In this document: positions 40,877 to 62,803 of the stretch, one piece after another
How the letters are laid out: every line of letters starts with the position of its first letter
How positions within the stretch are numbered: position 1 is the stretch's first letter
Assembly: GCF_001753245.1 (NCBI RefSeq)
Contig: NZ_CP017415.1
Coordinates: forward strand, 1,020,501 to 1,084,500
Reading direction: 5' to 3'
Source: Acidihalobacter yilgarnensis
GTDB lineage: Bacteria; Pseudomonadota; Gammaproteobacteria; DSM-5130; Acidihalobacteraceae
Length of the DNA: 64,000 nucleotides
Notes under the pieces: model-generated
What the model saw: the letters and a program-made list of their open reading frames with translations, nothing else
What the model was told of the DNA's origin: nothing
Database searches by the model: none
Made by a program: the position numbers and the translations under genes

Positions 40877-40886
40877 GTTGCTCTCC

Positions 40887-42452
40887 TTAGGTCGCATCCT
40901 TGTGATCGATCGTTTCCGCGACTACGGGCACCGGAAATTTGCGACGGCGCGGGTTCTTGGAACCGAATAGATTGGTTGGGGTAACGCCGCTGGTGTTGCA
41001 GCCGTCGCCGAAGCTGAAACCGCAGCCGCTGCGTTCGCCGTAGGCGTCGTCGGTGGAAATCTCGCGGTGGCCGCCAGGGACCACGAAGCGGTCTTCGTAG
41101 TTGGCGATCGCCATGATCCGATACATTTCATCGAGCTGTGTCTGACTCAGACCCACCTGGTCGAGCACATCGGTGCGGGTGACGCCATCCACGGTTTGGC
41201 TGCGCTTGTAGATGCGCATGGCGAGCATGCGTTCGAGGGCATGTTGCACCGGTGCCGTGTCGCCGGCGGTGAGCAGATTGGCCAGATACTGGATCGGGAT
41301 ACGCAGTGATTTGACATCGGGAATGGCGCCGTCGAAGCCGATCTGTCCCTGATCCACCGCGGCGCTGATCGACGATAACGGCGGGATGTACCAGACCATG
41401 GGCAGCGTGCGGTATTCGGGGTGTAGCGGGAAGGCGACCTTCCAGTCGATGGCCATTTTGTATACGGGAGATTGGCGCGCGGCTTCCAACCAGGATTCGG
41501 GTACACCGTCCCTGCGTGCCTGCGCGATAACAGCGGGATCGTTGGGATCCAGGAATATATCGAGCTGAGCCTGATAGAGATCCTGTTCATTTGCCTGCGA
41601 GGCGGCGTGCTTGATTCGGTCCGCGTCGTAGAGCACCACGCCGAGATAGCGGATACGTCCGACACAGGTTTCCGAACAGATGGTCGGTTGCCCCGCCTCG
41701 ATGCGTGGGTAACAGAAAATGCATTTTTCGGATTTCCCCGATTGCCAGTTGTAATAGATTTTTTTGTAAGGGCAGCCAGAAATACACATGCGCCAACCGC
41801 GGCATTTGTCCTGATCGATCAGGACGATGCCGTCCTCTTCACGCTTATAGATGGCACCGGATGGACAGCTTGCCACGCAGGTCGGATTGAGGCAGTGCTC
41901 ACAGAGTCTGGGCAGATACATCATGAAGGTGTTTTCGAATTGCCCGTAGATTTCTTTTTCCATATTTCGGAAGTTGTAATCCTTGGCGCGTTTCTCGAAC
42001 TCACCCCCCAGGATTTCTTCCCAATTCGGCCCCCATTCGATCTTGTCCATGGGTTTTCCGGTCAGCGCCGAATAGGGTTTCGCGGTGGGCTGAGCCTTGG
42101 ATTCCGGGGCGTTGTGCAGGCGCTGGTAATCGAAATTGAAGGGCTCGTAATAATCTTCGATCTGCGGCAGGTCTGGATTGGCGAAGACCTGCGCGAGTAC
42201 GCGCCACTTATTGCCGATGCGGGGAATCAATTTTCCCGTACTCCGGGTGCGCCGCCAGCCACCATTCCAGCGCGACTGATTTTCCCATTCCTTGGGATAG
42301 CCGATGCCGGGCTTGGTTTCAACGTTGTTGAACCAGGCGTATTCCACACCCTCGCGCGAGGTCCAGACATTCTTGCAGGTGATCGAACAGGTGTGACAGC
42401 CGATGCATTTGTCCAGATTCAGGACCATGCCGATCTGAGCGCGTACTCTCAT
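40887..42452 (-). CDS. narH: Respiratory nitrate reductase beta subunit (Fe-S)
   Basis: NarH (521 residues) carries electrons from NarI haem to NarG through four Fe-S clusters. The cysteine groups are visible as DKCIGCHTCSITCKNVW near residue 20, CEHCLNPTCVASCPSGAIYK, DKCRGWRMCISGCPYKKIYY with the Trp that makes a [3Fe-4S] site, and KCIFCYPRIEAGQPTICSETC. Its start overlaps the narG stop by four bases (ATGA), so the subunits are translationally coupled. There is no signal peptide, as expected for the cytoplasm-facing complex. Confidence 0.97.
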   Translation of the reverse strand: MRVRAQIGMVLNLDKCIGCHTCSITCKNVWTSREGVEYAWFNNVETKPGIGYPKEWENQSRWNGGWRRTRSTGKLIPRIGNKWRVLAQVFANPDLPQIEDYYEPFNFDYQRLHNAPESKAQPTAKPYSALTGKPMDKIEWGPNWEEILGGEFEKRAKDYNFRNMEKEIYGQFENTFMMYLPRLCEHCLNPTCVASCPSGAIYKREEDGIVLIDQDKCRGWRMCISGCPYKKIYYNWQSGKSEKCIFCYPRIEAGQPTICSETCVGRIRYLGVVLYDADRIKHAASQANEQDLYQAQLDIFLDPNDPAVIAQARRDGVPESWLEAARQSPVYKMAIDWKVAFPLHPEYRTLPMVWYIPPLSSISAAVDQGQIGFDGAIPDVKSLRIPIQYLANLLTAGDTAPVQHALERMLAMRIYKRSQTVDGVTRTDVLDQVGLSQTQLDEMYRIMAIANYEDRFVVPGGHREISTDDAYGERSGCGFSFGDGCNTSGVTPTNLFGSKNPRRRKFPVPVVAETIDHKDAT

Positions 42453-45400
42453 CGTGTGTACTCCTGTGTCAGGATGCTTTCGTCATCACCTTCGAGCCAG
42501 TTGACCTTGGCCATTTTGCGCAAGATGATGAATTCATCTCGGTTTGAGCCGACCGTGCCGTAATAATTGAAGCCGTAACTCAGCTGGGCATAGCCGCCGA
42601 TCATGTGGGTGGGTTTGGGCACCACGCGGGTAACCGAATTGTGAATGCCGCCGCGTTCGCCGGTTATTTCCGAGCCGGGCGTATTCACGATGCGTTCCTG
42701 GGCGTGATACATCATGGTCATGCCGACTGGGACGCGCTGCGAGACCACGGCGCGTGCCACCAACGCACCATTACGGTTGAAGACCTCGATCCAGTCGTTG
42801 TCGACGATGCCGGCGGTCTTGGCATCGATCTCGGACAGCCACACGATGGGCCCGCCACGCGAGAGCGTGAGCATGAGCAGGTTGTCGGTGTAGGTGCTGT
42901 GGATGCCCCATTTTTGATGTGGGGTGATCCAGTTCAGCACCAGTTCCTTGTTGCCGTTCGAGCGTTTTTCGAACAGTGGCTCGATGTCACGCGTGTTGAT
43001 GGGTGGTCGGTAGGTGGTGAAGCCCTCGCCGAAGGCCAGCATCCAAGCGTGGTCTTGGTAAAATTGCTGGCGCCCGGTCAGCGTGCGCCACGGGATCAGC
43101 TCGTTGACATTGGTCCAGCCGGCGTTGTAGCTGACCTCTTCGGATTCAATGCCGGACCAGGTCGGCGAGGAAATGATCTTGCGTGGCTGGGCCTGGATGT
43201 CACGAAAGCGGATTTTTTCGTCTTCCTTGTGCCGCGCGAGGTGGGCGTGTTCGCGACCGGTCACCTTGGATAGCGCCTCCCAGGCCTTGATTGCGACGTG
43301 GCCGTTGGTCTCCGGGGCGAGGCTGAGAATGGCCTCTGCGGCGTCGATGGCGGTCTCCATTTTCGGACGCCCCATGCGCGAGCTACCCTCGGTATGGCGG
43401 CCGTTCAAGTCACCGAGGAATTCGACTTCTTCGCCGGTGTTCCAGCCGATGCCCTTGCCGCCATTGCCGAGTTTTTCCAGCAAGGGGCCGATCGAGGTGA
43501 AACGCTCGAATGTGGCTGGGTAATCGCGTTCCACGACAATGATGTTCGGCATGGTCTTGCCTGGGATCGGTTCGCAGTCGCCCCGGCGCCAATCCTCAAC
43601 ATCGCATGCTTGACCCATTTCGGCAGGGGTATCGTGCAGCAGCGGTAGCGTGACGAGATCCTTTTCCACGCCAAGATGGCCTTTGACTACCTCGGAAAAT
43701 TTCTCCGCGATGCCCTTGAAGATGCTCCAGTCGCTACGCGACTCCCAAACGGGGCTGACGGCCTCGGACAGCGGATGAATGAAGGGATGCATGTCCGAGG
43801 TATTCAGATCGTCCTTTTCATACCAGGTGGCCGTGGGCAGGATGATGTCCGAATACAGGCAGGTGGTGGACATGCGGAAATCTAGCGTGACCAGTAGGTC
43901 GAGTTTGCCGCGAGGCGCTTCTTCGTGCCAAGCCACGTCCTGCGGATGGGCGCCGCTCTCGGGGCCGAGTTCATCGCTCTGCACGCCGTCGCGGGTGCCG
44001 AGTAGATGGCGCAGGAAATATTCGTGGCCTTTGCCGCTGGAGCCGAGCAGATTGGAACGCCAGACGAACAGGTTACGTGGGAAATTGACCGGGTCGTCGG
44101 GGTCTTCGCAGCTCATTCGGAGATGCCCGTTCTTGAGTTGCTCAACGACATGGGCCTTGGGATCCTTGCCGGCGGCCTCGGCTTCCTTTGTCAGCGTGAG
44201 TGGATTACGTGCGAGCTGCGGGGCGGATGGCAGCCAACCCATGCGTTCGGCGCGCACGTTGCAGTCAATCAGGCTCATCTGCCAGTCTTCGGGGTCGACC
44301 AGCGGTGAGACCAGATCGGACACGCGCTGTGTCTCGTAGCGCCATTGATCGGTGTGCGCGTAGAAAAAGGAGGTCCCGTTCATGTGGCGGGGTGGACGGG
44401 ACCAATCCAGGGCGAAGGCGACGGGCAGCCAGCCCGTCTGCGGGCGCAGCTTTTCCTGGCCGACATAATGCGCCCAGCCACCGCCGGACTGGCCGACGCA
44501 ACCGCAGAGCATCAACATGTTGATGATGCCGCGGTAGTTCATATCCATGTGATACCAGTGATTGAGCCCCGCACCGAGAATCACCATGGAGCGCCCGCGA
44601 GTTTTGGCGGCCGTATCGGCGAATTCGCGCGCGGTATTGATCACCTTGCGGCGGTCGACACCGGTAATGTGCTCCTGCCACGCGGGCGTGTAGGGCAGGT
44701 CGTCGTCGAAGCTGCTGGCCACGCCGGGGTCGTTCAGGCCTCGGTCCAACCCGTAGTGGGCCAGCATCAGGTCGTAGACGGTGGCCACTAGCGCCTCCTG
44801 CCCGTCAGCCAGGCGCAGGCGCCTGACCGGAACCCTGCGCATGAGCACGTCGTCGTGAGCGGTGTGGCGAAAATGCTCACGTTCGATCCCGCCGAAATAA
44901 GGGAAGACCACCTCGCTGACTTCGTCGTGCGCGTCAATCAGGGATAACCGGAAGCGCACTTCACGTTCGTTGTCAGCGGCCCTGGATTCGAGATTCCATT
45001 GCCCGCTTTCGTCCCAGCGGAAGCCGATCGAGCCCTGCGGCACGATCACTGCTTGGGAATCTTCATCAAAGGCGACGGTCTTCCATTCCGGGTGCTTGGT
45101 TTGTCCAAGGGCAGCGTCGAAGTCCGATGCGCGCAGGAAGCGTCCGGGCGTCAGGCCCTTGAAGCCTGGGTCGAGGCGTACAAGAAACGGCAGATCGGTA
45201 TAACGTCGGCAATAATCGATGAAATATTCGTTGGGATTGTCGAGGTGAAATTCGCGCAGGATGACATGACCCATGGCCATCGCCAGTGCGGCGTCTGTCC
45301 CTTGCTTGGGCGCGAGCCAGACGTCGGCGAATTTGGTGGCTTCGGCATAATCGGGTGAGACGACTGCGATCTTCGTGCCGTTGTAGCGGGCCTCGGTCAT

Positions 45401-46201
45401 GAAGTGGGCGTCGGGTGTGCGGGTTTGCGGGACGTTGGACCCCCACATCATGATGAATTTGGCGTTGTACCAGTCGGCTGATTCGGGGACATCGGTCTGT
45501 TCGCCCCAGGTCATCGGCGAGCTGGGGGGGAGGTCGCAGTACCAGTCATAGAAGGAGAGGCAGACGCCGCCTATCAGCGAGAGATATCGACTGCCAGCTG
45601 CATACGACACCATCGACATTGCGGGGATCGGCGAAAAACCGATGACGCGGTCGGGGCCGTATTTTTTGATGGTGTAGACATTGGCCGCGGCGATGATTTC
45701 ATTGACCTCTTCCCAGTTGCTGCGCACCAGGCCGCCAAGGCCGCGACGAGTTTTGTATGCGTTGGCTTTCTCGGTATTTTCGACGATCGATATCCAGGCT
45801 TCCACGGGGTCATCATGACTGGCGCGAGCCTCGCGCCAGAGTTTGAGCAGCCGCCCACGGATCATCGGATATTTGAGACGGTTTGCGCTGTAGATATACC
45901 AGGAGAAACTTGCGCCGCGCGGACAGCCGCGAGGTTCGTGGTTGGGTAGGCCTGGGCGTGTTCGGGGATAATCGGTTTGCTGGGTTTCCCAGGTCACCAG
46001 ACCATCCTTGACATAGATCTTCCAGCTGCAGGAACCGGTGCAGTTCACGCCGTGGGTCGAACGCACGATTTTGTCGTGCTGCCAACGCTGCCGGTAAGAT
46101 TTTTCCCATGAGCGATCTTCCAGTGTGGTCTGTCCGTGGCCATCTGAAAATTCGTCCTGGACCTTGCGAAAGAACGTCAGTCGATCGAGGAAATGGCTCA
46201 T
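42449..46201 (-). CDS. narG: Respiratory nitrate reductase alpha subunit (molybdoenzyme)
   Basis: NarG reduces nitrate to nitrite at a bis-MGD molybdenum centre. The 1250-residue length is normal. The N-terminus MSHFLDRLTFFRKVQDEFSD, the FS0 cluster ligands in STHGVNCTGSCSWKIYVKDG, YPRTRPGLPNHEPRGCPRG and the central MWGSNVPQTRTPDAHFMTEA are all intact. The start at 46201 is supported by GGAGG; readings from further upstream are not conserved. It leads narGHJI-ppiC, 203 bases after the nitrate transporter narK, from which it may be co-transcribed. Confidence 0.98.
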   Translation of the reverse strand: MSHFLDRLTFFRKVQDEFSDGHGQTTLEDRSWEKSYRQRWQHDKIVRSTHGVNCTGSCSWKIYVKDGLVTWETQQTDYPRTRPGLPNHEPRGCPRGASFSWYIYSANRLKYPMIRGRLLKLWREARASHDDPVEAWISIVENTEKANAYKTRRGLGGLVRSNWEEVNEIIAAANVYTIKKYGPDRVIGFSPIPAMSMVSYAAGSRYLSLIGGVCLSFYDWYCDLPPSSPMTWGEQTDVPESADWYNAKFIMMWGSNVPQTRTPDAHFMTEARYNGTKIAVVSPDYAEATKFADVWLAPKQGTDAALAMAMGHVILREFHLDNPNEYFIDYCRRYTDLPFLVRLDPGFKGLTPGRFLRASDFDAALGQTKHPEWKTVAFDEDSQAVIVPQGSIGFRWDESGQWNLESRAADNEREVRFRLSLIDAHDEVSEVVFPYFGGIEREHFRHTAHDDVLMRRVPVRRLRLADGQEALVATVYDLMLAHYGLDRGLNDPGVASSFDDDLPYTPAWQEHITGVDRRKVINTAREFADTAAKTRGRSMVILGAGLNHWYHMDMNYRGIINMLMLCGCVGQSGGGWAHYVGQEKLRPQTGWLPVAFALDWSRPPRHMNGTSFFYAHTDQWRYETQRVSDLVSPLVDPEDWQMSLIDCNVRAERMGWLPSAPQLARNPLTLTKEAEAAGKDPKAHVVEQLKNGHLRMSCEDPDDPVNFPRNLFVWRSNLLGSSGKGHEYFLRHLLGTRDGVQSDELGPESGAHPQDVAWHEEAPRGKLDLLVTLDFRMSTTCLYSDIILPTATWYEKDDLNTSDMHPFIHPLSEAVSPVWESRSDWSIFKGIAEKFSEVVKGHLGVEKDLVTLPLLHDTPAEMGQACDVEDWRRGDCEPIPGKTMPNIIVVERDYPATFERFTSIGPLLEKLGNGGKGIGWNTGEEVEFLGDLNGRHTEGSSRMGRPKMETAIDAAEAILSLAPETNGHVAIKAWEALSKVTGREHAHLARHKEDEKIRFRDIQAQPRKIISSPTWSGIESEEVSYNAGWTNVNELIPWRTLTGRQQFYQDHAWMLAFGEGFTTYRPPINTRDIEPLFEKRSNGNKELVLNWITPHQKWGIHSTYTDNLLMLTLSRGGPIVWLSEIDAKTAGIVDNDWIEVFNRNGALVARAVVSQRVPVGMTMMYHAQERIVNTPGSEITGERGGIHNSVTRVVPKPTHMIGGYAQLSYGFNYYGTVGSNRDEFIILRKMAKVNWLEGDDESILTQEYTR

Positions 46202-46404
46202 GAGGCTGCCTCCGTATCGGTCGCGGCGTGACCGTGCCGCTGAGCTAAGTAAATGAGGTGTGGTTCCACGGTGTTGAGCGGATCGCGGCATGGCCTCGTG
46301 GCCGCCGCCGGGCATCCAATGGCACTGTCTTCGAATGACGGCATGATTCGGGTCTCGTATTCTGCTCGTGGGACTTAAAGGCGCGAGTGATGCGTGCCTG
46401 TTAT

Positions 46405-47754
46405 TTATTTCACTCGATGGGGCGCGACGCGCACGGGGGAGGTATGGATGGCCACGCCCTTACGTGTCGTGTAGAGCAGGACAGTGAAGAGCAGACTGAT
46501 CAGCGCCAGAATTACGTAGACGACGTAGCCGCGCGCGTATCCGATGGTGCCCATGCGCTCGGCGATACTGCCGAGTAGCGGTGGCACGACGAACCCGCCG
46601 AGCGCACCCAGACCACCAACCCAGCCGGCGGTGCCGCCGACCGCATCGGGCACGTAGAGCGGTACGAGCTTGAATACTGCAGCGTTGTTTACGCCCATGC
46701 CGGCACCGACCAGAATTTCGCCGGCGACGGTGATCCAGAAGCTACCGGAAAACGTCATAAGCAGTGCGCCGGCGAGCAGGACGAGCAATGCGACGGCGGC
46801 CACAAGCTCGCCGCCAAAGCGATCTGCCCAGCTACCGCCGGGCACGCGAATGATCGAAGAGAACAGCGAAAAACCCGCGGTGAGTGCGATCGCAGCCATG
46901 GGTGTCGCGTGGTAAAAAGTCTGCCAAAAATTGGGTAACCACGCAGTCAATGCCAGGAAGCCGCCGAAGGTGGTGAAATAAAGGATCACCAGCGGCCAGG
47001 TGCGCCAGCTCATGGCCGAGTCGCGTAAGGTTTTGAACATACTGACCGCCGGGAAGAGTTCCTGTCCGTGTCTGGCGGCTTCTTCGCGTGCCTGATCGGG
47101 CGGCACGTCTTGGTGGCGCAATTGGAAATAAGGTGCGTTGAAGCCAATGACGACGTATAGCGCGATGCCCGCGATTACGATGGCGAGCGAAACGAGATAT
47201 CCCATCCATAATCCACCTGCAGCGATAATCAGCGGCAGAATGATCGCAACCAGCCCTGGCGACGTGTTGCCCAGCCCGGCATAGATAGCAAGTGCCCGGC
47301 CCTGGCTGTTTCTCGGGTACCAGTACGACACTTGGCCAATACCGACAGAGAACGTGGCGATACCGCAGCCGCCCAGCGCCCCGAAGAACAGTAACCATGG
47401 GTAATGGGCTTGTGTCAGATGGTCGGGGTAGAGCGTCAGTAGCATCCAGTACAGACCGGCGATCCCGATGACTGATGCCAACAACAGAATCAGAAAAGGC
47501 AGTTTGCCGCCATTGCGGTCTACCCAGGCACCAAAGGGTATGCGCAGTAGCGACCCGGTCAACATGGGAATGGCGACCAGGAAGCCAACCTGTGCGGGCG
47601 TCAACTGCATAACTTCAATGAAGCCGTGGGCGGTAGGGCCGAAGAGTGAAACAGCGCCGAATCCGATGAAAAATCCGACGGTGGCGCCGATCAAGGATTT
47701 GACGGCACTGCCTTTAATGGGTGTGGGTGCCTGTGCGGTTTTGGGGGAGGGCAT
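46405..47754 (-). CDS. narK: Nitrate/nitrite transporter of the NarK family
   Basis: This major-facilitator protein of 449 residues has about 12 hydrophobic spans and imports nitrate or exchanges it for nitrite. Family landmarks are the conserved Arg in LLRIPFGAWVDRNGGK, the glycine-rich FFGALGGCGIATFSVGIGQV and GNTSPGLVAIILP, and AGFSLFSSIIRVPGGSWADR with GMGVNNAAVFKLVPLYVPDA in the second half. It is the first gene of the nar cluster and has an FNR/Dnr-type box about 77 bases upstream of its ATG. Confidence 0.95.
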   Translation of the reverse strand: MPSPKTAQAPTPIKGSAVKSLIGATVGFFIGFGAVSLFGPTAHGFIEVMQLTPAQVGFLVAIPMLTGSLLRIPFGAWVDRNGGKLPFLILLLASVIGIAGLYWMLLTLYPDHLTQAHYPWLLFFGALGGCGIATFSVGIGQVSYWYPRNSQGRALAIYAGLGNTSPGLVAIILPLIIAAGGLWMGYLVSLAIVIAGIALYVVIGFNAPYFQLRHQDVPPDQAREEAARHGQELFPAVSMFKTLRDSAMSWRTWPLVILYFTTFGGFLALTAWLPNFWQTFYHATPMAAIALTAGFSLFSSIIRVPGGSWADRFGGELVAAVALLVLLAGALLMTFSGSFWITVAGEILVGAGMGVNNAAVFKLVPLYVPDAVGGTAGWVGGLGALGGFVVPPLLGSIAERMGTIGYARGYVVYVILALISLLFTVLLYTTRKGVAIHTSPVRVAPHRVK

Positions 47755-48430: not shown

Positions 48431-49120
48431 TCAGTCGTGCAGGTTGGGTGCGGCTGCGAGTGTTCTGAGCCCTGGCACATCAAGCAGGCGGAGGCTGCGA
48501 GCGTGCATTTCGATCAGGCCGCGGCGCTGCAGTTCGCCGAGCAGTCGCGAGAGTGTTTCCGGCTTGATGGCGAGGTGCGCGGCGACCACGGATTTGGAGG
48601 CCGGGAGTTGAAGGGCGTCGCCGGATTCCGCGAGTGCTAGCAGGTAGGCGATCAGCCGATAGTGCGCACTTTCGAGCGTCTGCGCCTCGACTTCGGCCAG
48701 CAGACCCTGGATACGCCGCGTCTGTTGCGCGAGCAGGGCAATGCAGGTCGATGGCGCATCGAGCAGGAGGCCGCGGAATGTTGCAGCATCGACAGCCCAG
48801 ACTTCACTGGCTTCGAGGGACTGGGCGCTGACTGGGTAAACGGCCTGCTCCATGAAGGCGATACCCTCGGCGAAGGTGCCGCCAGGCGATACGATGCTCA
48901 TAACCTTTTCTTCGCCCTGGCGCGAGAGCATGAATAGCTTGATGCGTCCGGTGCGCAACAGAAAAAATTCCGCCGCCGGGGCGCCGGCATGGAACAGCGG
49001 CTCGTCGCGTTCAAGTTTATGGCGATGCGTGTGACGCGCCAGCACGTCGATTTGCCGTTGATCCAGCGTGGCGAACAGACCCACTTCTTGCAGGTTTTCG
49101 ATCATTCGATCCGTTTCCAT
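48431..49120 (-). CDS. dnr: Crp/Fnr-family regulator, Dnr-like
   Basis: This 229-residue regulator has a cyclic-nucleotide-type beta barrel (residues about 20-130: DEPLFHAGAPAAEFFLLRTG, MSIVSPGGTFAEGIAFM). A C-terminal winged helix follows (LPASKSVVAAHLAIKPETLS, RLLGELQRRGLIEMHA). The N-terminal cysteines that bind the Fe-S cluster of FNR are absent, so it belongs with Dnr/Nnr proteins, which sense NO with haem. The recognition helix ETLSR keeps the Glu and Arg that read TTGAT half-sites. A box at 49254-49267 lies between this gene and the divergent globin operon. Its likely targets are the five boxes in this window. Confidence 0.85.
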   Translation of the reverse strand: METDRMIENLQEVGLFATLDQRQIDVLARHTHRHKLERDEPLFHAGAPAAEFFLLRTGRIKLFMLSRQGEEKVMSIVSPGGTFAEGIAFMEQAVYPVSAQSLEASEVWAVDAATFRGLLLDAPSTCIALLAQQTRRIQGLLAEVEAQTLESAHYRLIAYLLALAESGDALQLPASKSVVAAHLAIKPETLSRLLGELQRRGLIEMHARSLRLLDVPGLRTLAAAPNLHD

Positions 49121-52328: not shown

Positions 52329-52554
52329 AGACGATAAATTACGTGTATCTGAATCAAGTCGGCTCGGTCTGTAACGCCGCGCCTAGGCAGTAGCGTGACG
52401 GATATTTTGGCGGGATAGCCGGAAACGGACGGGCTGAGCAGCCATACTCCCCTCATAGCGTGGCAATGAATGCGATGAATCGCAGCCCACAGTCGTCCAT
52501 GCTTGGTATGTTCAGTAAGACTCTGGCATGCTACGCCGCCCGCATGAAGACACC

Positions 52555-53412
52555 ATGAAAACTCCCAAGCGAATCCAGCCACTGGTTGATGATGGCCTCG
52601 TTGATGAAGTCATCCGCTCATTGATGAGCGGCAAGGAGGCTTCGGTCTATATTGTGCGCTGTGGCTCCGAAATCCGCTGCGCCAAGGTCTACAAAGACGC
52701 AAGCCAGCGTAGCTTCAAGCAGGCGACTCAGTACCAAGAGGGACGCAAATCGCGTAACAGCCGCCGAGCGCGCGCCATGGAAAAGGGCTCGCGGTTTGGC
52801 CGTGAGCAGCAGGAAACTTCATGGCATAGCGCCGAGGTCGATGCGTTGTACCGGCTGGCAGAGGCCGGCGTGCGCGTACCCCAGCCTTTCGGCTGTTTTG
52901 AGGGGGTGCTGCTGATGGAGTTGATCACCGATGTAGACGGCGATGTGGCGCCCCGTTTAAACGACGTCTCCTTGTCTCACGAACAGGCGCTTGCCGGCCA
53001 TGCGCAATTGATGAGAGACATCGTGCGTATGCTCTGTGCAGGCCTGGTGCATGGCGATCTGTCCGAATTTAATGTGCTAATGGATGCATCGGGTCCGGTC
53101 ATCATCGACCTGCCGCAGGCGGTCGACGCCGCCGCCAACAACCATGCGCAATGGATGCTTGCGAGGGATGTTGAAAGCATCACCGCTTATTATGCGCAAT
53201 CCGCCCCGGAGCTGAGCGACACGCGCTATGCACAGGAGATCTGGGCGCTCTATGAAAAGGGCGAATTGACCCCGGATGTGGCGCTGAGTGGTCGATTCGT
53301 GGAGGAAGCGACGGATGCAGATGTGGACGCAGTGCTGCAAGTGATTCAGGATGCCAGGGAAGAAGAGTTGGCCCGCAGGCAGCGTTTACTTGACTCTAAC
53401 GAATCTGATTGA
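52555..53412 (+). CDS. RIO1-type serine/threonine protein kinase
   Basis: This 285-residue protein kinase-like protein has the RIO-family hallmarks: the glycine-loop equivalent LMSGKEASVYIVRCGSEIRC, Lys in AKVYKDASQRSFKQATQYQE, the catalytic loop LVHGDLSEFNVLM and the metal-binding VIIDLPQAVD in place of DFG. Bacterial members of this family (YhcX/RioA-like in proteobacteria) have poorly known substrates, possibly ribosomal. Start 52555 (MKTPKRIQPLVDDGLVD) begins at the conserved N-terminus. It appears to be monocistronic. Confidence 0.9.
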   Translation: MKTPKRIQPLVDDGLVDEVIRSLMSGKEASVYIVRCGSEIRCAKVYKDASQRSFKQATQYQEGRKSRNSRRARAMEKGSRFGREQQETSWHSAEVDALYRLAEAGVRVPQPFGCFEGVLLMELITDVDGDVAPRLNDVSLSHEQALAGHAQLMRDIVRMLCAGLVHGDLSEFNVLMDASGPVIIDLPQAVDAAANNHAQWMLARDVESITAYYAQSAPELSDTRYAQEIWALYEKGELTPDVALSGRFVEEATDADVDAVLQVIQDAREEELARRQRLLDSNESD

Positions 53413-53871: not shown

Positions 53872-53885
53872 TTGACTTGGATCAA
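53872..53885 (+). promoter_or_regulatory. FNR/Dnr-type box of the radical SAM-UbiUV operon
   Basis: TTGAC-TTGG-ATCAA differs from the FNR consensus at one base. Activation at -41.5 would place the transcription start near 53920, before the radical SAM start at 53948 but after the in-frame ATG at 53915, so the box supports the later start. Confidence 0.75.
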
Positions 53886-53947
53886 GGTGGTGTTCCAGGG
53901 GCGACGTATATTCGATGCTGGATTGTGTCAATAATGGATGCTTCGGC

Positions 53948-54562
53948 ATGAACGGTTCCGAGATAAATTCTACCTATGCCTATAGTCTGCACGGCAATTG
54001 TTATTTGAATGTGACTAACCGTTGCACGCTGCGTTGCCGTTTTTGTCCGAAGTTCAATGGTCAGTGGCTTGTGCAGAGCTACGGTCTTAAATTGTATCGA
54101 GAGCCAGATGTGGATGCATTAATAGATGCGGTAGGTGATGCAAGCACATGGAAAGAAGTCGTTTTTTGCGGACTGGGCGAGCCTACATTGCGTCTGGGCA
54201 CAGTGCTGGAGACGGCACGACGACTGCATGAATCAGGAGTGCGTGTGCGGCTCAATACGGATGGTCTAAGCAATCATGTGTACGGGCATGATGTGATCCC
54301 CCGGTTGGCGAATGTGATCGATGCGGTCTCGGTATCGCTCAATGCGCAGACCGCAGCTGTATATGCCGTCCATTGCCGCCCACGGGATGCAGGTGCTTAT
54401 CCGGCGGTGCTCGATTTTCTGTATCGAGCATCGGATTGTTTTGCGGAGGTGACCGCGACAGCCATCGATGGTTTGGTGGGTGTGGATATGGATACTTGTG
54501 CCGAAATCGCCGATAAAATGGGCGTGTCATTTCGGCGACGCGAGTTGGATAAAGTGGGTTGA
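53948..54562 (+). CDS. Radical SAM protein of the TatD-associated type
   Basis: This short radical SAM protein (204 residues) has the cluster motif Cys26-x3-Cys30-x2-Cys33 in NRCTLRCRFCPK, the GGE-equivalent VVFCGLGEPTLRLG and LNTDGLSNHVYG in the SAM-binding region. It resembles the family usually found next to TatD-type hydrolases, whose reaction is unknown. Here the neighbours are UbiU, UbiV and an LplA-like/DUF116 protein instead. The ATG at 53948 is preferred to one at 53915 because of the FNR/Dnr box position, though no strong ribosome binding site is present for either. Participation in anaerobic cofactor synthesis is inferred from the operon. Confidence 0.8.
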   Translation: MNGSEINSTYAYSLHGNCYLNVTNRCTLRCRFCPKFNGQWLVQSYGLKLYREPDVDALIDAVGDASTWKEVVFCGLGEPTLRLGTVLETARRLHESGVRVRLNTDGLSNHVYGHDVIPRLANVIDAVSVSLNAQTAAVYAVHCRPRDAGAYPAVLDFLYRASDCFAEVTATAIDGLVGVDMDTCAEIADKMGVSFRRRELDKVG

Positions 54563-54650
54563 TGGTTTCGTAGGGTTCGCGGAAACGCGTGTTTTTGAGA
54601 TCCATATACATCGCTTCGATGTGGCTTGTGTCATTTGATTGGTGATTGAT

Positions 54651-55664
54651 ATGTCTGTGGTAAAAATACCTGAATTGGTTTGCCCGGCCGGTAGTTTGCC
54701 CGCGTTGCGCGCGGCAGTGGATGGTGGCGCAGATGCGGTTTATTTGGGTCTTCAGAACGCGACCAATGCAAGAAATTTTCCGGGGCTTAACTTTTTTATT
54801 GAAGATATTAGGCGTGGCATAGAATATGCGCGCCAGCGAAATGCGAAGATTTTTTTGGCACTCAATACCTATCCACAGGCAGAAAACTGGGTGCAATGGA
54901 CGTCGGCGGTTGATATCGCGGCTGACTTGAATGTTGATGCCGTCATCATGGCCGATCCTGGGCTATTGTCGTACGCAGTCAAAAAATATCCGTCATTGCG
55001 CCTGCATTTGTCGGTTCAGGGATCGGCTACCAATTTGCATGCATTGACATTTTACAAAGAACATTTTGGTGTCCAGCGTGCGGTGCTACCAAGAGTGCTT
55101 TCATTGCAGCAGGTTCGTGCAATTATAAAAATTGCACCATTGGAAATAGAGGTTTTTGGGTTTGGCAGTCTGTGTGTGATGGTCGAGGGTCGATGTGCCT
55201 TGTCATCGTATGTGACGGGGGAGTCGCCGAATACACGCGGCGTGTGCTCGCCTGCGCATGCCGTGCGTTGGGAGGAGACTTCGGCCGGACGGCAGGTGCG
55301 GTTGAATGGCGTGCTGGTGGATCGATATGCCCCTGGTGAGCCGGCCGGCTACCCCACTTTATGTAAAGGACGTTACCTCGTATCGGCGAAGGCGGATTAT
55401 GCGATCGAAGAGCCGACCAGTCTTAGTGTGCTGGATATCTTGCCGGACTTGATCTCAGCTGGTGTGACGGCGATAAAGGTTGAGGGGCGTCAGCGTAGCC
55501 CGGCCTATGTCGGGCAGGTGACACAGGTGCTGAGACGGGCGCTGGATCGGTGTGGTCGTGATGCCGGGACATATCGGCCGGAGCCAGCTTGGCGGGAGAC
55601 CCTCGACAAGCTGTCGGAAGGACAGAGCCACACGCTGGGCGCACTTGATCGCCCTTGGCAGTGA
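54651..55664 (+). CDS. ubiU: Ubiquinone biosynthesis protein UbiU (U32 peptidase family)
   Basis: UbiU, with UbiV, hydroxylates the ubiquinone ring without oxygen. The protein is 337 residues. Its four Fe-S cysteines Cys175, Cys182, Cys199 and Cys238 keep exactly the spacing of the E. coli protein (7, 17 and 39). The N-terminal ELVCPAGSLPALRAAVDGGA and the VEGRCALSSYVTGESPNTRG segment are typical. The ATG at 54651 has only a weak GGTGAT upstream. It precedes ubiV by 18 bases. Oxygen-independent ubiquinone is what a facultative anaerobe needs for nitrate respiration through NarI. Confidence 0.93.
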   Translation: MSVVKIPELVCPAGSLPALRAAVDGGADAVYLGLQNATNARNFPGLNFFIEDIRRGIEYARQRNAKIFLALNTYPQAENWVQWTSAVDIAADLNVDAVIMADPGLLSYAVKKYPSLRLHLSVQGSATNLHALTFYKEHFGVQRAVLPRVLSLQQVRAIIKIAPLEIEVFGFGSLCVMVEGRCALSSYVTGESPNTRGVCSPAHAVRWEETSAGRQVRLNGVLVDRYAPGEPAGYPTLCKGRYLVSAKADYAIEEPTSLSVLDILPDLISAGVTAIKVEGRQRSPAYVGQVTQVLRRALDRCGRDAGTYRPEPAWRETLDKLSEGQSHTLGALDRPWQ

Positions 55665-55682
55665 GTATGTATGGGAGGAGAA

Positions 55683-56588
55683 ATGAAGTTAGCGTTAGGC
55701 CCTCTTGCCTATTACTGGCCGGAGCAAGTGATGCGGGATTTTTACCGACAGGTGGAATCCTGGCCTGTCGACATCGTCTACCTGGGTGAGGTCGTATGCG
55801 CAAAACGACGTAATTTTGGATTAGATGACTGGCTGGAAACAGCTGATCGATTGTCCGCCACGGGTAAGGAAATCGTGCTTTCGACTTTGGCACTGGTCGA
55901 AGCGGCTTCGGAGTTACATGCTCTTGAGCGGATATGCCGGAATGGCCGTTACCGAGTCGAAGCCAACGATATGGCCGCGGTACAGGTGTTATCCAGCGAG
56001 GCATCCTTTGTCGTGGGGCCGCATTTGAATTGCTATAACCCAGCGACTTTGGGGTTGCTGGCGGGTATGGGCGCTACCCGCTGGGTGGCACCGGTCGAAA
56101 TGTCCGCCTCCATGCTCAATGCCATACAGTTGTCAGACTTTGAGGGTGTGGAGACAGAGGTGCTCGCCTACGGTCGTCTACCACTGGCCTTTTCGGCCAG
56201 GTGCTTTACGGCTAGGGACGCTGGCATACCGAAGGATCATTGCGAATTTCGTTGCGAGAAACACCCAGATGGATTGCGCTTGAGTACTCAGGAAAATCAA
56301 CCGCTGTTTACGGTGAATGGTGTGCAATTGCAATCAGGTTTGCCCTGTAATTTACTCGATGATCTCGATACTTTACGAGATAGTGGCGTGGATGTGCTTC
56401 GATTGATGCCCCAAATGCATGGCATGGCGCAGATTGTCGAGGTGTTTCATCAAGCCATACATGGGCATGTGGGCACAATGGCGACTTTAGAGTTGCTTGA
56501 AACATTGAATCCAGATGGCTATTGCAATGGATACTGGCATGGAAACGAAGGTATGCACTGGTACCCCCCTACATTGAGAAGCGAGTAG
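55683..56588 (+). CDS. ubiV: Ubiquinone biosynthesis protein UbiV (U32 peptidase family)
   Basis: UbiV is the partner of UbiU in oxygen-independent ring hydroxylation. The 301-residue protein has the four cluster ligands Cys39 (LGEVVCAKRRNF), Cys174, Cys187 and Cys191 (SARCFTARDAGIPKDHCEFR then C), with the spacing of the E. coli protein. GGAGGAG stands directly before the ATG at 55683. The next gene, encoding an LplA-like/DUF116 fusion, follows 97 bases downstream on the same strand. Confidence 0.93.
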   Translation: MKLALGPLAYYWPEQVMRDFYRQVESWPVDIVYLGEVVCAKRRNFGLDDWLETADRLSATGKEIVLSTLALVEAASELHALERICRNGRYRVEANDMAAVQVLSSEASFVVGPHLNCYNPATLGLLAGMGATRWVAPVEMSASMLNAIQLSDFEGVETEVLAYGRLPLAFSARCFTARDAGIPKDHCEFRCEKHPDGLRLSTQENQPLFTVNGVQLQSGLPCNLLDDLDTLRDSGVDVLRLMPQMHGMAQIVEVFHQAIHGHVGTMATLELLETLNPDGYCNGYWHGNEGMHWYPPTLRSE

Positions 56589-56685
56589 CCATTGGCATTA
56601 TTGAATTGATGGCTATTTGTGGAAACAACGTTGGAGGCGATCTCACTTCAATGATTTATACAATATTTTAGCCATTTATTTCATC

Positions 56686-58206
56686 ATGAAGAATCTTTCA
56701 GATTGTGAACCGATGTCGGGTATTGAAGTTGTTGCTTATGATGCGGCGCAACTCAGCTTGACAGCTAGGTACGGTGTGCCCTATTTGCGCTTCTATCGAT
56801 ATCGTCCTACTGCGTGTCTGGGGTACTCTGAAGACCTTGATCATGCGTTACGTCAAGAATTCTGTGCCGATAATGGCATCGCCATCGTAAGGCGTTTGAG
56901 TGGCGGTGACGCGCTTTATTTGGATGAAGGCCAATTATGTTGGACATTGACCGCCAAACGTGAAGACTTGTTGGGCAGTATGGATGCTGTCTTGATGAAA
57001 TTGGTTCAAGGTATGGGTGAGGGTTTGAAGAAAATTTTCGTCGGCGCGAATTTCTCGAAACCGAACAGCCTGGAAGTGAATGGTAAGACATTAGGCATGG
57101 TCTATCTGGGCGAAAAGGATGATATCTGGATCGCTCATGGTGTATTGCTTGAATGCCTGGATATTGAAACACAGCTCAAGGTGCTGCGTGCGCCAAAGGA
57201 GAAATTGAATCCTGATGGTATTCTGTTGGCGGCGGCACGATTTATTACGTTGCATGAATTGATTGGGCCAGACTCAGGTGATTACGCGGGCGCGCTCTTC
57301 GCGTCACTCGCGCAATCCACTGGGCTCGCGATCAGGATAGCGCCTACGCTAGACGCTTGCGCGGATGTGATACCCGAGCATCCGCCGATGTCATATGCCA
57401 ATGCTGTGTCTGCATTCCTTGTGACGCCTGGCGGCAATACATTACGTGCGACATTGAATCTGAGTTTTGACGGTTTGCGCGTCATGGGGTGCTCGCTTCA
57501 CGGAGATGTATTGGTGCGCCCGAGTGGACTTTACGAATCCCTCTGCAACGATTTGGTAGGCCATCTTGTAGTGGAGCTGGATGCGTATATCAGAAGGTTT
57601 TTTGCGTGCTTCGACTGGGAAATGTTGGGTTGTGCCACAGACGATGTCGTTCGGCTTTTCAATATGGTCGTTTTGCGAAAGTCGCAGCAGGAGAAGCTCG
57701 AAATAACGGCCGACCAAGCCAATAGCCTGATGATACATGATCCTCAAGGCGACGGAGATGTGTCGGTGCTGCTGAATGTGGTCGACGCCGTATTAGTGCC
57801 TTATTGCGCGAAGCCGGTCTGGTGTAAATGGCGCCACAGGGATGGTTGCCCGGAATGTGGGATGTGCGCTGTGGGGGTCGCTTATCATCTGGCGCGTCAG
57901 CGCCATATTCCCGTCATTACAATACGCAATTTTGAACATCTTGAGTCGGTGCTGTCGGATTTCAAGGCATCGGATTCTCGGGCTTATGTGGGAATGTGTT
58001 GCAGCCATTTTTACAGGAAGCGCTATCGCGCCTTCGAGCATGCGATGATGCCTGCTCTGCTGATGGATATCAGCGGGTCTAATTGTTATGAATTGGGCCA
58101 GGAAAACCTCGCCTACGAGGGCCGATTCGAGGCCCAATCCGAAATCAACCGGTCTTTGTTGGAAAAAGTGATGGTTCAGGTGCCGCCGGCTCGGGATCAG
58201 TCCTGA
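56686..58206 (+). CDS. Lipoate-protein-ligase-like domain fused to a Cys-rich DUF116 domain
   Basis: This protein of about 506 residues has two parts. Residues about 20-270 resemble the LplA/LipB/BirA fold: YLRFYRYRPTACLGYSED, IVRRLSGGDALYLDEGQLCW in place of RRxSGGGAVxHD, and VNGKTLGMVYLGEKDDIWIA followed by HGVLLECLD, with the acyl-adenylate Lys kept. Residues about 370-500 match DUF116: PVWCKWRHRDGCPECGMCAV, YVGMCCSHFYRKRYRAFEHA and MDISGSNCYELGQENLAYEG, with at least six cysteines suited to a metal or Fe-S site. Start choice is uncertain (56686, 56713 or a TTG at 56617). It is the fourth gene after radical SAM, ubiU and ubiV. The substrate is unknown; lipoate, octanoate or another acyl group are possible. 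Confidence 0.78.
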   Translation: MKNLSDCEPMSGIEVVAYDAAQLSLTARYGVPYLRFYRYRPTACLGYSEDLDHALRQEFCADNGIAIVRRLSGGDALYLDEGQLCWTLTAKREDLLGSMDAVLMKLVQGMGEGLKKIFVGANFSKPNSLEVNGKTLGMVYLGEKDDIWIAHGVLLECLDIETQLKVLRAPKEKLNPDGILLAAARFITLHELIGPDSGDYAGALFASLAQSTGLAIRIAPTLDACADVIPEHPPMSYANAVSAFLVTPGGNTLRATLNLSFDGLRVMGCSLHGDVLVRPSGLYESLCNDLVGHLVVELDAYIRRFFACFDWEMLGCATDDVVRLFNMVVLRKSQQEKLEITADQANSLMIHDPQGDGDVSVLLNVVDAVLVPYCAKPVWCKWRHRDGCPECGMCAVGVAYHLARQRHIPVITIRNFEHLESVLSDFKASDSRAYVGMCCSHFYRKRYRAFEHAMMPALLMDISGSNCYELGQENLAYEGRFEAQSEINRSLLEKVMVQVPPARDQS

Positions 58207-58212
58207 ATAGGG

Positions 58213-58770
58213 TCAGGATGTTTGACCCAATATTCTCGCTAGCATCAGATGTACCTGACGGGGCGCACCGCTACGTGCGACGATATCGGCGATCCGTTTT
58301 GTCGGAGCAGGACCAAGCAAGGTACTCAAGCGTCCTTCCCAGTCATAATCCAGGCTGTCGAGGAGATTTTTTACCGCTAGTCCCGTTTCTGTCGCCCCTT
58401 CTATGATTAATTGGCGATTGAAAAACAGGGTGTCTGGGTCCTCGGTCCGGGTTGCAAGGCGCAAGAAAACGGCCAATGTACCTCGAATACTCACCTCGCA
58501 GCGTTCGAGAGCGTCATTTGTGGAATACAGGCGCCCGTTTGCGATCAGAAAGCACCACCGATTGCCTGTATCGGTTATGGCGATGCCAATGCGTCTGCCA
58601 TGCAGTTCGCGTGCTCTGGTAGTAATCGCCTGCGGTCCGATCATGAGATTGAAGACATGCGCAATCATCATGCCGTGCAACGCGTTGGGCATCGTCTTGA
58701 GTAGTAATGCGAGCGGGTATGGCGGCAAGGCGGAAGGATGTGACGTGGCGACGTTGGTGACATGAGGCAT
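58213..58770 (-). CDS. ubiT: Ubiquinone biosynthesis accessory factor UbiT (SCP2 domain)
   Basis: This 185-residue protein with an SCP2 sterol-carrier-like fold (HVFNLMIGPQAITTRARELH, then GIAITDTGNRWCFLIANGRL and DTLFFNRQLIIEGATETGLA) matches UbiT, the lipid-binding partner of UbiUV in oxygen-independent ubiquinone synthesis. The start at 58770 (MPHVTNVATSH) is chosen over an ATG at 58878 because a Dnr-type box at 58835-58848 would otherwise fall inside the gene. It converges with the LplA-like/DUF116 gene, six bases apart, so ubiT and ubiUV are in adjacent, opposite transcripts. Confidence 0.9.
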   Translation of the reverse strand: MPHVTNVATSHPSALPPYPLALLLKTMPNALHGMMIAHVFNLMIGPQAITTRARELHGRRIGIAITDTGNRWCFLIANGRLYSTNDALERCEVSIRGTLAVFLRLATRTEDPDTLFFNRQLIIEGATETGLAVKNLLDSLDYDWEGRLSTLLGPAPTKRIADIVARSGAPRQVHLMLARILGQTS

Positions 58771-58834
58771 GACGATGACCCTCTGTATTGCCTGAACACA
58801 TTGGCGATCATGCACTTGTGGTCGTTCGGGCCGG

Positions 58835-58848
58835 TTGATCTGTGTCAA
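58835..58848 (-). promoter_or_regulatory. Dnr-type box upstream of ubiT
   Basis: TTGAT-CTGT-GTCAA fits TTGAT-N4-GTCAA. It is centred 71 bases before the chosen ubiT ATG, giving a predicted transcription start near 58800. Confidence 0.75.
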
Positions 58849-58939
58849 CCGAGAGAGGCTTGAGGCGAAGCGCGCCATGGCAAAAATACCGGGATATTGA
58901 AGCAGGCGGGATAGGAGCGCTGCCGACGGCAGCCGATCG

Positions 58940-59777: not shown

Positions 59778-60479
59778 CTACGCCGTACCTCTGAATTGGA
59801 AAGACTCGAACCAGGGGCTGATGTCTTCGCCCGCTTTGCGCCACAAGGATTCTTCTTCCGCTGCATGCTGTGGGTATCCGAATGCATCCAATATGCGCCT
59901 CGTCTGCCATGCGTAGTGGCGGACGCCCTGTTTGGCAAGCCATCGTGCAAGACGGGTCATGCCCTCGATCGTTGCGCCAGCGTAGATCGTGGTGCGTATC
60001 TCGTAGTCCAGACCGCTGCCGATGACCCCATCCAGGCTGCGCTGGAAACGCATTCCGGCACCGGGAACGCCGGTGATTTTCGAGTAGAGATCAAGTGGCG
60101 CCTTGGCGTCGAGCGCAATCCAGTCAAGGGTACTGAACAGTGACATCAGGCGCCGTGGATAAATTCCGGCGGTATGCAGGCCAGTACGAAATCCCATGGC
60201 CCGGGTTTCGATGAGGGCCGCTCCGAGTGCTGCCTGCGCAGTCGGCTCTCCACCGCTGAAAACAACCCCGTCGAGCAGACCGTGTCGGCGCTCAAGGAAG
60301 GTTTTGATCCGTGCCCAGTCGATACCTTGCCCCTTTGCGGTTGAGGCTAATTGCAGCGGGGTGTTTTGGCAGTAATCGCATCGCCAGGGGCAGCCCTGGC
60401 AGAAAACGACCGCGGCCAGGTTTCCTGGGAAATCGAGTGTGGTGAGCGGGGTGAACCCGCCTATGCGCAAGGTTTCCAC
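59778..60479 (-). CDS. nrdG: Class III ribonucleotide reductase activase (radical SAM)
   Basis: NrdG uses SAM and a [4Fe-4S] cluster to place the glycyl radical on the class III reductase. The 233-residue protein has the cluster motif Cys30-x3-Cys34-x2-Cys37 in CQGCPWRCDYCQN, FSGGEPTAQAALGAALIETR and GIYPRRLMSLFSTLDWIALD. It is the longer activase type with extra sequence after the core. It begins with GTG at 60479, inside the 3' end of the glycyl-radical polypeptide gene (19-base overlap), so its translation is probably coupled to its presumed substrate. No separate ribosome binding site is seen. Confidence 0.9.
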   Translation of the reverse strand: METLRIGGFTPLTTLDFPGNLAAVVFCQGCPWRCDYCQNTPLQLASTAKGQGIDWARIKTFLERRHGLLDGVVFSGGEPTAQAALGAALIETRAMGFRTGLHTAGIYPRRLMSLFSTLDWIALDAKAPLDLYSKITGVPGAGMRFQRSLDGVIGSGLDYEIRTTIYAGATIEGMTRLARWLAKQGVRHYAWQTRRILDAFGYPQHAAEEESLWRKAGEDISPWFESFQFRGTA

Positions 60480-60667
60480 TGCGCGGACACTTTTGTGGCA
60501 ATTCGTTCAGAGGTTGCCGGCTCGCGGAAGTGTTGCCGCTGCGCATGCTCGGACTGTTTGCCTGGATTGAATTCAGAGACGGGGCGGTGGTAGCCCATCA
60601 CGCGCGTCCACACCTCACAGCGCTGCCGCTCGGCGTCGCTCAGCGAATCGATTTTGTCGATGTGCAT
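60461..60667 (-). CDS. Free-standing glycyl-radical segment of class III ribonucleotide reductase
   Basis: This 68-residue protein contains EVWTRVMGYHRPVSEFNPGK, which matches the extreme C-terminus of one-chain NrdD proteins (RVxGYL...FNxGKxxE). Gly25 in RVMGY corresponds to the glycyl-radical residue. The neighbouring NrdD ends after its zinc motif and lacks this segment, so the two together make one reductase. It is a real gene rather than a frameshifted tail: it has its own AAGGAG six bases before the ATG, starts 39 bases after the nrdD stop, and overlaps the nrdG start. NrdG would activate it. About 25 residues after the motif show no known domain. Confidence 0.85.
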   Translation of the reverse strand: MHIDKIDSLSDAERQRCEVWTRVMGYHRPVSEFNPGKQSEHAQRQHFREPATSERIATKVSAQWKPCA

Positions 60668-60706
60668 ATGTTTTTCTCCTTGTTACTTGTCGATGTGGCA
60701 GCGCGG

Positions 60707-62803
60707 TTAATGTGCCGTCATGCGCTTGTGCGCCAGGCGTTCTTCGTCGCAGCGGGGGCAGAATTCGTGCTCGCCGGCCAGATAGCCGTGTTTGGGGCAA
60801 ATGGAGAAGGTGGGTGTAATCGTGAGGTAGGGCACTCTGAAGCGCTCCAAGGCACGCCGCACGATCCGCTTGCAGGCCTCCGCACTTGAGATACGTTCGT
60901 TCATGTAGAGGTGAAGTACCGTCCCCCCGGTATAACGTTGTTGAAGCGCTTCTTGGCGTTCGAGCGCATCGAAGGGATCATCCGTGAAGCCCACCGGGAG
61001 CTGGCTCGAATTGGTGTAATACGGTTTTTCTGGCGTGCCCGCCTGCAGGATGCCCGGCAGGCGTTTACGATCTTCCTTGGCGAAGCGGTAGGTCGTACCC
61101 TCTGCCGGCGTTGCTTCAAGGTTGTAGAGATGACCGGTTTCTTCCTGGAAGGCGACGATGCGCGCGCGCACATGATCCAGCACCCGGCAGGCGAAGGCAT
61201 GGCCCCAATCGCTGGTGATGTCTTGCGAGTCGCCGGTGAAATTGCGAATCATCTCGTTGATGCCATTAATGCCAAGGGTGGAAAAATGGTTGCGCAGAGT
61301 GCCGAGATAACGCTTCGTGTAGGGGAACAGTCCTTCATCGATGAATCGTTGAATGACCTTGCGTTTGATCTCCAGGCTGGCCTTGCCGAGTTCGAGCAAG
61401 GTGTCCAGCCGCATGAGGAGTTCAGTTTCGTCGCCACAATATAAATAACCCAGGCGCGCGCAGTTGATGGTGACGACGCCGATGGAGCCGGTTTGTTCGG
61501 CGGAGCCGAATAAACCGTTCCCGCGTTTGAGCAGCTCGCGCAGATCGAGTTGGAGTCGGCAGCACATCGATCGGACCATGTGCGGTTCGAGATCGGAATT
61601 GAGGAAGTTCTGAAAATACGGCAGTCCGTATTTCGCCGTCATTTCGAACAGGCGTGTGGCGTTTTCGGATGCCCACGGAAATTCCGGCGTAATGTTGTAG
61701 GTGGGGATGGGGAAGGTGAAGACGCGGCCCTTGGCGTCACCGCGGGTCATGACATCGATATAGGCGCGGTTGATGAGGTCCATCTCCGGGACCAGTTCGC
61801 CGTAGGTGAAAGGCATTTCCTCGCCGCCGATCACCGGGTGCTGCGTGGCAAGATCGGCGGGACAGACCCAATCGAAGGTGAGGTTGGTGAAGGGGGTTTG
61901 GGTGCCCCAGCGCGAGGGGACGTTGAGGTTGAACACAAGCTCCTGTATGTGCTGATGTACGGTTTCGTAGGTGAGCGCATCTTTGCGCACAAACGGCGCA
62001 AGGTAGGTATCGAAGGAACTGAACGCCTGTGCGCCCGCCCATTCGTTCTGCAACGTGCCGAGGAAATTCACCATTTGTCCAACCGCGCTCGACAGGTGCC
62101 GGGGCGGACCCGCCTCGACTTTTCCAGGGACGCCATTGAGCCCTTCGGCCAACAAGGTGCGTAGCGACCAGCCCGCGCAGTAGCCCGAGAGCATATCGAG
62201 GTCGTGAATGTGCAAATCGGCATTGCGGTGGGCCTCGCCGATTTCGGGTGGATAGACGTGACTGAGCCAGAAATTTGCGATGACCTTGCCTGAGACATTC
62301 AAGATCAAACCGCCCAGCGAGTAGCCTTGATTGGCGTTGGCGTGGACGCGCCAGTCCGCGCGGGTCAGATATTCCTGTACCGAGGATTCCACATCGATCA
62401 GCGTCTTGCGATCCTCGCGCAATCGCCGGTGTTGTTCGCGATAGACGGCATAGGCGCGCGCGACGGCATAGTATTCGGCACGCATCAGTGCCAATTCGAT
62501 CTGATCCTGGATGTATTCGATGTGCGCGCCGCCATCGTGCGACAGGCGCCGCTCAAGGGCGCGCGTTACCGCGTCGGTCAATGCCTGGAGCGTGTTGTCT
62601 TGGCCGCTGGGAAGTGTGTTAACAGGGCCGGCGGCTAGAAATGCCTTCGTAATGGCAGTTTTGATTTTCGACGGATTGAAGGTCGAAAGTCGGCCATCTC
62701 GATGAATGACTTTGTAGGCTGCTTGCGGTGGATGGACGGGTGCTTCTTTGCTGCGTGCGGGTGTCCCGGTGCGGGATTGGGTTGTCGTGGCATCGATGTT
62801 CAT
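60707..62803 (-). CDS. nrdD: Class III anaerobic ribonucleoside-triphosphate reductase, body lacking the glycyl-radical tail
   Basis: NrdD makes deoxyribonucleotides without oxygen. The 698-residue chain has an N-terminal ATP-cone (about 30-130: YKVIHRDGRLSTFNPSKIKT). The catalytic barrel includes DLDMLSGYCAGWSLRTLL with the thiyl Cys region, NVPSRWGTQTPFTNLTFDW and TGSIGVVTINCARLGYLY. A zinc site follows at the C-terminus (ICPKHGYLAGEHEFCPRCDE). It stops about 10 residues after the zinc site, where other NrdDs continue to the glycyl radical; that part is on the next gene. AGGAGG precedes the ATG. A NrdR-box pair and a sigma-70-like promoter lie about 270 bases upstream. Confidence 0.93.
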   Translation of the reverse strand: MNIDATTTQSRTGTPARSKEAPVHPPQAAYKVIHRDGRLSTFNPSKIKTAITKAFLAAGPVNTLPSGQDNTLQALTDAVTRALERRLSHDGGAHIEYIQDQIELALMRAEYYAVARAYAVYREQHRRLREDRKTLIDVESSVQEYLTRADWRVHANANQGYSLGGLILNVSGKVIANFWLSHVYPPEIGEAHRNADLHIHDLDMLSGYCAGWSLRTLLAEGLNGVPGKVEAGPPRHLSSAVGQMVNFLGTLQNEWAGAQAFSSFDTYLAPFVRKDALTYETVHQHIQELVFNLNVPSRWGTQTPFTNLTFDWVCPADLATQHPVIGGEEMPFTYGELVPEMDLINRAYIDVMTRGDAKGRVFTFPIPTYNITPEFPWASENATRLFEMTAKYGLPYFQNFLNSDLEPHMVRSMCCRLQLDLRELLKRGNGLFGSAEQTGSIGVVTINCARLGYLYCGDETELLMRLDTLLELGKASLEIKRKVIQRFIDEGLFPYTKRYLGTLRNHFSTLGINGINEMIRNFTGDSQDITSDWGHAFACRVLDHVRARIVAFQEETGHLYNLEATPAEGTTYRFAKEDRKRLPGILQAGTPEKPYYTNSSQLPVGFTDDPFDALERQEALQQRYTGGTVLHLYMNERISSAEACKRIVRRALERFRVPYLTITPTFSICPKHGYLAGEHEFCPRCDEERLAHKRMTAH

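Follow-up and report, generated by a model that had tools for sequence, protein, structure and literature searches.

The DNA analysed here, called the window below, is a 64,000-nucleotide stretch of the Acidihalobacter yilgarnensis contig NZ_CP017415.1. It contains an anaerobic-respiration island in which narK-narGHJI is followed by a radical SAM gene, ubiU, ubiV and a gene that fuses an LplA-like ligase to DUF116, then by a convergent ubiT, with nrdG/nrdD beyond. The fusion gene (56686..58206, plus strand) is an uninterrupted open reading frame with an ATG start that codes for 506 residues, and the AlphaFold2 model of its product has a mean pLDDT of 90.3 and a pTM of 0.88. Directly 5’ of it lie ubiU (54639..55664, plus strand; NF047963, 530 bits, cut-off 440), with a likely start at the ATG at 54651, and ubiV (55671..56588, plus strand; NF047965, 383.5 bits, cut-off 275). 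The radical SAM gene (53915..54562, plus strand) belongs to the TatD-associated family TIGR04038 (NCBIfam, 225.8 bits, cut-off 129.7); its true start is probably the ATG at 53948, because an FNR/Dnr box lies only 30 bp ahead of 53915. The ubiT gene (58213..58878, minus strand; NF047962, 117.7 bits, cut-off 46.9), overlooked in an earlier note on this sequence, converges with the fusion gene and probably starts near 58773, since an FNR box falls within its longest open reading frame. This gene order is found again in at least eight families, and thus the arrangement is not due to chance.

Several other genes surround the set. The narK-narGHJI cluster (39487-47754, minus strand) has FNR/Dnr boxes at 48301 and 49254 and adjoins a gene for a CRP/FNR-type regulator (FtrB-like, 48431-49120), and a gene for a PA4780-family RIO1-like protein kinase (52528-53412) lies just 5’ of the radical SAM-ubiUV-fusion cluster. 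NrdD, an anaerobic ribonucleotide reductase, and its activase NrdG2 are encoded beside ubiT (59778-62803), a grouping that is seen again in several fusion loci (L002, L006, L036, L038, L090 and L095).

A perfect FNR/Dnr box, TTGACTTGGATCAA (53872..53885, plus strand), precedes the radical SAM-ubiU-ubiV-fusion set, in agreement with the earlier note, which had placed the fusion downstream of these genes behind such a box. A second box (58835..58848, minus strand) serves ubiT. Scanning with the strict pattern TTGAY-N4-RTCAA identifies four boxes in the window, compared with 0.2 expected by chance, and 32 boxes across 18 fusion-related loci, compared with 0.4 expected; at least one box is present in 12 of the 18. 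Several of these lie directly 5’ of the ubiUV-fusion set or of ubiT in other genomes, and the placement ahead of ubiUV-fusion sets is the same for the boxes at 7651 in L097, 12099 in L091 and 12028 in L094. The fusion gene set thus has the upstream TTGAY-N4-RTCAA box that marks an FNR/Dnr regulon member. A promoter scan of the gap between ubiV and the fusion gene (56588-56686) yielded no convincing promoter (2 matches versus 6.4 in shuffled sequences).

The ligase half (56686..57690, plus strand) comprises residues 1-335, with a catalytic and a C-terminal domain. It matches the Pfam LplA-B_cat family with an E value of 8e-20, and its predicted model is a complete two-domain LplA fold (Z 27.8, rmsd 2.7 over 287 residues against 5ij6). 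In this it resembles the E. coli (1x2g) and E. faecalis (5ij6) LplA proteins, but unlike them the window protein has changes in its catalytic Lys and in its GGG and ND motifs. The alteration of the RRLSGGD motif had been recognized previously: GGD replaces GGG, and the ND that follows is also changed, to NS. The catalytic Lys, in contrast, had been reported as retained. When the protein is aligned with 20 homologous fusions and sLpl(AB), Thr135 (codon 57088..57090, plus strand) falls at the site where lipoate ligases have their catalytic Lys, and the nearby Lys134 occupies the position of the preceding Arg in relatives. Across the 23 fusions examined, the catalytic Lys is present in 19 and lost in four, being Thr in the window protein, L044 and L046 and Arg in L048. 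The RRxxGG loop is kept in 22 of the 23, with the third Gly replaced by Asp in the window protein, and the Gly after the Lys in GRKxxG is altered in most of the ubiUV-linked fusions (GRKxAS).

The DUF116 half (57691..58206, plus strand) makes up the C-terminal 171 residues. The window protein itself scores 21.7 bits for Pfam DUF116 (PF01976), below the cut-off of 25, but the assignment stands because five homologous fusions reach 33-37 bits; the earlier reading of a single frame joining an LplA-like ligase to DUF116 is therefore upheld. Prediction of its structure, which had been suggested as a check, gave a Rossmann-like domain (pLDDT 92.1) with eight Cys residues (374, 380, 388, 391, 394, 438, 439 and 467). 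Seven of these (C374, C380, C388, C391, C394, C439 and C467) are invariant in all 23 fusions, and the eighth, Cys438, is missing in only three. The DUF116 CxxCxxC motif corresponds to C388, C391 and C394, and the Cys pattern as a whole would fit an Fe-S protein. For this half, the assignment goes no further than the fold class, because its model has no Foldseek match at E<=0.001 and its best structural match is a designed Rossmann 2x2 protein (Z 8.5). DUF116 (PF01976, COG1852, arCOG02078) was predicted earlier to bind metal and transfer electrons and to adopt a flavodoxin-like fold (PMC5898192). The window domain shares with this family the CxxCxxC Cys pattern and the Rossmann- or flavodoxin-like fold and, through its homologues, the Pfam match; known archaeal members, however, carry a pair of membrane helices at the N terminus and lack a ligase (PMC5898192), whereas here the domain is joined to a ligase fold. 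Mean pairwise identity among the fusions is 0.63 for the DUF116 core versus 0.41 for the catalytic domain, and together with seven invariant Cys residues versus an eroding ligase site this indicates that the DUF116 half is under the stronger constraint.

In the sHdr sulfur-oxidation pathway, the lipoyl group is carried by LbpA. The nearest single-domain relatives of the ligase half are the sLpl(AB) proteins, LbpA-specific lipoate/octanoate ligases of sulfur oxidizers (Tanabe 2023, PMC10332631), to which it is homologous over its full length, including the C-terminal domain. The ligase tree places 22 fusions in a single group (support 99/98) beside sLpl(AB), and the 23rd, FUS_L129 from genome G377, with sLpl(AB). 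Descent of the ligase half from sLpl(AB) is thus well supported; the DUF116 tree is too poorly resolved to place the origin of the fusion. Two genomes connect the fusion to the lipoate pathway directly. In G377, which has no UbiU, the fusion has an intact ligase motif and is the operon’s own sLpl(AB) in an sHdr-LbpA-LipS1-LipT-LipS2 operon. In G735, the fusion adjoins LbpA; LipS1, LipT, LipS2 and sLpl(AB) are 5-8 kb from it, and a different contig carries UbiU. The pairing of DUF116 with the ligase is therefore present within the lipoate pathway itself.

Such physical linkage of the fusion to lbpA and lipS1/lipS2 is confined to G377 and, as nearby genes, G735; in the window genome, a full sHdr-LbpA-LipS1-sLpl(AB)-LipT-LipS2 cluster lies ~1.8 Mb from the fusion. 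Among 17 LipS2 regions retrieved, LipS1, LipT and sLpl(AB) adjoin LipS2 in 16, the region from G039 ending at a contig end; LbpA is present in 14 and sHdr genes in 10 of those 16, and the window genome’s own region is arranged likewise. Except for G377, every checked genome with the complete module has a separate intact sLpl(AB). Because these companion genes retain NDIEVxGRKxxG, with its intact Lys motif, ligation is covered elsewhere. The fusion thus differs from sLpl(AB) proper in its extra DUF116 domain, its linkage to ubiUV, the loss of the Lys in some members and the presence of a separate sLpl(AB). For the proposed tie to lipoylation, the link holds, through descent from sLpl(AB) and co-occurrence with the LipS1/LipS2-LbpA module, but attachment of an acyl or lipoyl group by the window protein is not supported, given the lost Lys, which three other members also lack, and the separate ligase.

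The distribution of the fusion was surveyed in a class sample of 369 genomes, of which 92 have UbiU, 27 have LipS2 (searched at E<=1e-40, as scores in these bacteria fall under the family’s curated cut-off) and 13 have the fusion. All 13 fusion genomes contain UbiU (Fisher p 7e-9), with the fusion adjacent to ubiUV in 10, which bears out the preference for UbiUV genomes that the earlier note would have predicted. The fusion is also associated with the lipoate module. The fusion occurs in 10/11 genomes with both UbiU and LipS2, in 3/81 with UbiU only, and in none of the 16 with LipS2 only or the 261 with neither. Within UbiU genomes the association with LipS2 has a Fisher p of 4e-10, a value computed over genomes that are partly related; with families as the units, the comparison is 8/9 versus 1/55 (p 2e-8). 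Near-relative pairs from three families (G331/G117, G320/G086 and G158/G364) differ in the fusion and LipS2 together. In this class, the fusion is retained almost only where both the LbpA/LipS1/LipS2 lipoate module and UbiUVT are present, usually directly behind ubiUV. In a second class sample, around G735, it occurs in 1 of 289 genomes, and a search of plasmids returned only ordinary lipoate ligases and the like.

Movement of a single ubiUV-fusion cassette by horizontal transfer was considered and rejected. A first UbiU tree, which took in only the best-scoring fusion-free loci, hinted at it with three changes of the fusion label, but in a balanced sample the best tree needs 10 changes, at least seven of them forced. 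A strict rule that both systems together entail the fusion is likewise broken. G039 lacks the fusion despite having UbiU and LipS2. The genomes G379, G690 and G724, which lie outside the class, contain UbiU and sLpl(AB), and no fusion was found in them. The three f123 fusions (L086, L087 and L088) occur without LipS2 in the genome and away from ubiUV, and have lost Cys438, and the G377 fusion occurs without UbiU. The congener G002 has both systems, with ubiUVT intact, and all that is left of the fusion there is a DUF116 remnant truncated by an IS, so the fusion is dispensable at least in that genome. In view of these exceptions, the fusion is an accessory and not a core part of the ubiquinone or lipoate pathway.

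Some of these variant copies have further distinguishing features. The f123 fusions have an intact ligase Lys motif and adjoin mgtE and pmbA/tldD-like genes, and they possibly have a different function. The G002 remnant (L037, 8193-8700) is cut by an IS4-type transposase gene and lies ~400 kb from an intact radical SAM-ubiUV/ubiT set. G217 contains three copies of the DUF116 half (L049, L054 and L055): a fusion adjacent to ubiUV, a second full fusion elsewhere and one partial copy. In the Burkholderiales loci L004 and L007, the fusion is distant from ubiUVT, though both genomes have UbiU and LipS2; in L007 it is located between miaA and xseA.

UbiTUV constitutes the O2-independent ubiquinone pathway (Pelosi 2019, PMC6747719), and the window ubiU, ubiV and ubiT genes adjoining the fusion are ordinary members of their families. 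The fusion, in contrast, forms no part of the pathway as described. It is absent from 79 of the 92 UbiU genomes and thus does not occur wherever UbiUV works, as a UbiTUV component would. Together with the retention of ubiUVT in G002, this argues against a general role in quinone synthesis. The radical SAM protein, proposed earlier as a partner, was also discarded as a specific partner of the fusion, since TIGR04038 adjoins ubiU in many fusion-free genomes (for example L061, L074, L077, L084, L138, L157, L160 and L168) and is nearby in only a minority of fusion loci. As it neighbors ubiU both with and without the fusion, the link between TIGR04038 and UbiUV looks real in its own right.

The reading we favor, to which we assign a probability of roughly 40%, is that a repurposed LbpA ligase docks lipoyl-LbpA while an Fe-S DUF116 domain passes electrons or sulfur to an anaerobic partner during anoxic sulfur oxidation. 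The window protein would no longer need to ligate; its former ligase half would dock LbpA or hold the lipoyl arm of LbpA, a task to which it is suited because the catalytic site is lost or relaxed and most of the lipoyl-holding loop is kept. The DUF116 half would carry one or two putative Fe-S clusters that move electrons or sulfur between lipoyl-LbpA and the partner, for which UbiU-UbiV or the quinone system would be the simplest choice, with UbiU-UbiV the nearest candidate by gene order. Such transfer would operate in cells that use nitrate in place of oxygen to oxidize sulfur. Binding of LbpA, the Fe-S cluster and contact with UbiUV are all predictions of this reading, and UbiU could be a mere marker of an anaerobic lifestyle. 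Hyphomicrobium denitrificans, which has both sulfur oxidation and anaerobic ubiquinone synthesis, provides independent evidence that the two are regulated together: its ubiXDTUV transcripts drop upon loss of the sulfur-responsive repressor sHdrR or SoxR (PMC12423496).

Other explanations account for parts of these data. The fusion may help to mature or protect the [4Fe-4S] proteins UbiU and UbiV, a function required only where cytoplasmic reactive sulfane sulfur is abundant, as in sHdr organisms, or in denitrification. This would account for the association with both UbiUV and sulfur oxidation, and it is consistent with the position of the gene directly 3’ of ubiV in most loci, the FNR/Dnr boxes in common and the conservation of the Cys-rich half. 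We nonetheless regard it as rather unlikely, as it leaves unexplained both the LbpA-ligase half and the G377 fusion in an sHdr operon without UbiU, and most UbiU genomes do without the fusion, among them G039, whose sulfur module is the same. The presence of the catalytic Lys in 19 of the 23 fusions counts against the docking proposal, as most members may still ligate. It favors a fusion that still works anaerobically as a lipoyl- or octanoyl-ligase on an LbpA-like acceptor, with DUF116 giving sulfur or electrons for sulfur insertion, the view closest to that of the earlier note. The complete LplA fold and the role of the G377 fusion as sole ligase within the sHdr lipoate operon point the same way, but the loss of the Lys in the window protein, L044, L046 and L048, the changed Gly of GRKxxG in most ubiUV-linked members and the separate intact sLpl(AB) make such activity unlikely overall. 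Least probable, and in our view very unlikely, is a decaying former sLpl(AB)-DUF116 gene carried behind ubiUV and losing its function, which would fit the degenerate ligase site of the window protein and the IS-truncated G002 remnant but not the invariant Cys residues and 0.63 core identity of DUF116, the intact reading frames in distant families or the repeated joint presence with LipS2.

Keyword searches of the sLpl(AB) papers, among them Tanabe 2023 (PMC10332631), did not find a ligase-DUF116 fusion. In literature searches that mostly covered sources outside subscription journals, no publication was found on DUF116 together with lipoate, and those on UbiU with lipoate concerned other topics, none describing the fusion.

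Under the docking proposal, the fusion shows a lipoate ligase put to a new, probably non-catalytic, use, and its distribution is suggestive of a connection, so far undescribed, of sulfur oxidation with anaerobic respiration. A more specific form of that proposal, which is for now doubtful, is that the former LbpA ligase reads or reduces lipoyl-LbpA and, through its DUF116 Fe-S clusters, supplies UbiU-UbiV or the quinone pool with electrons (or sulfur), coupling anoxic sulfur oxidation to quinone supply. If true, this would provide the first function for DUF116. The fusion is a single gene through which the electron route from sHdr-LbpA to the respiratory chain, the role of DUF116 and the needs of anaerobic ubiquinone synthesis besides UbiTUV may be tested jointly.
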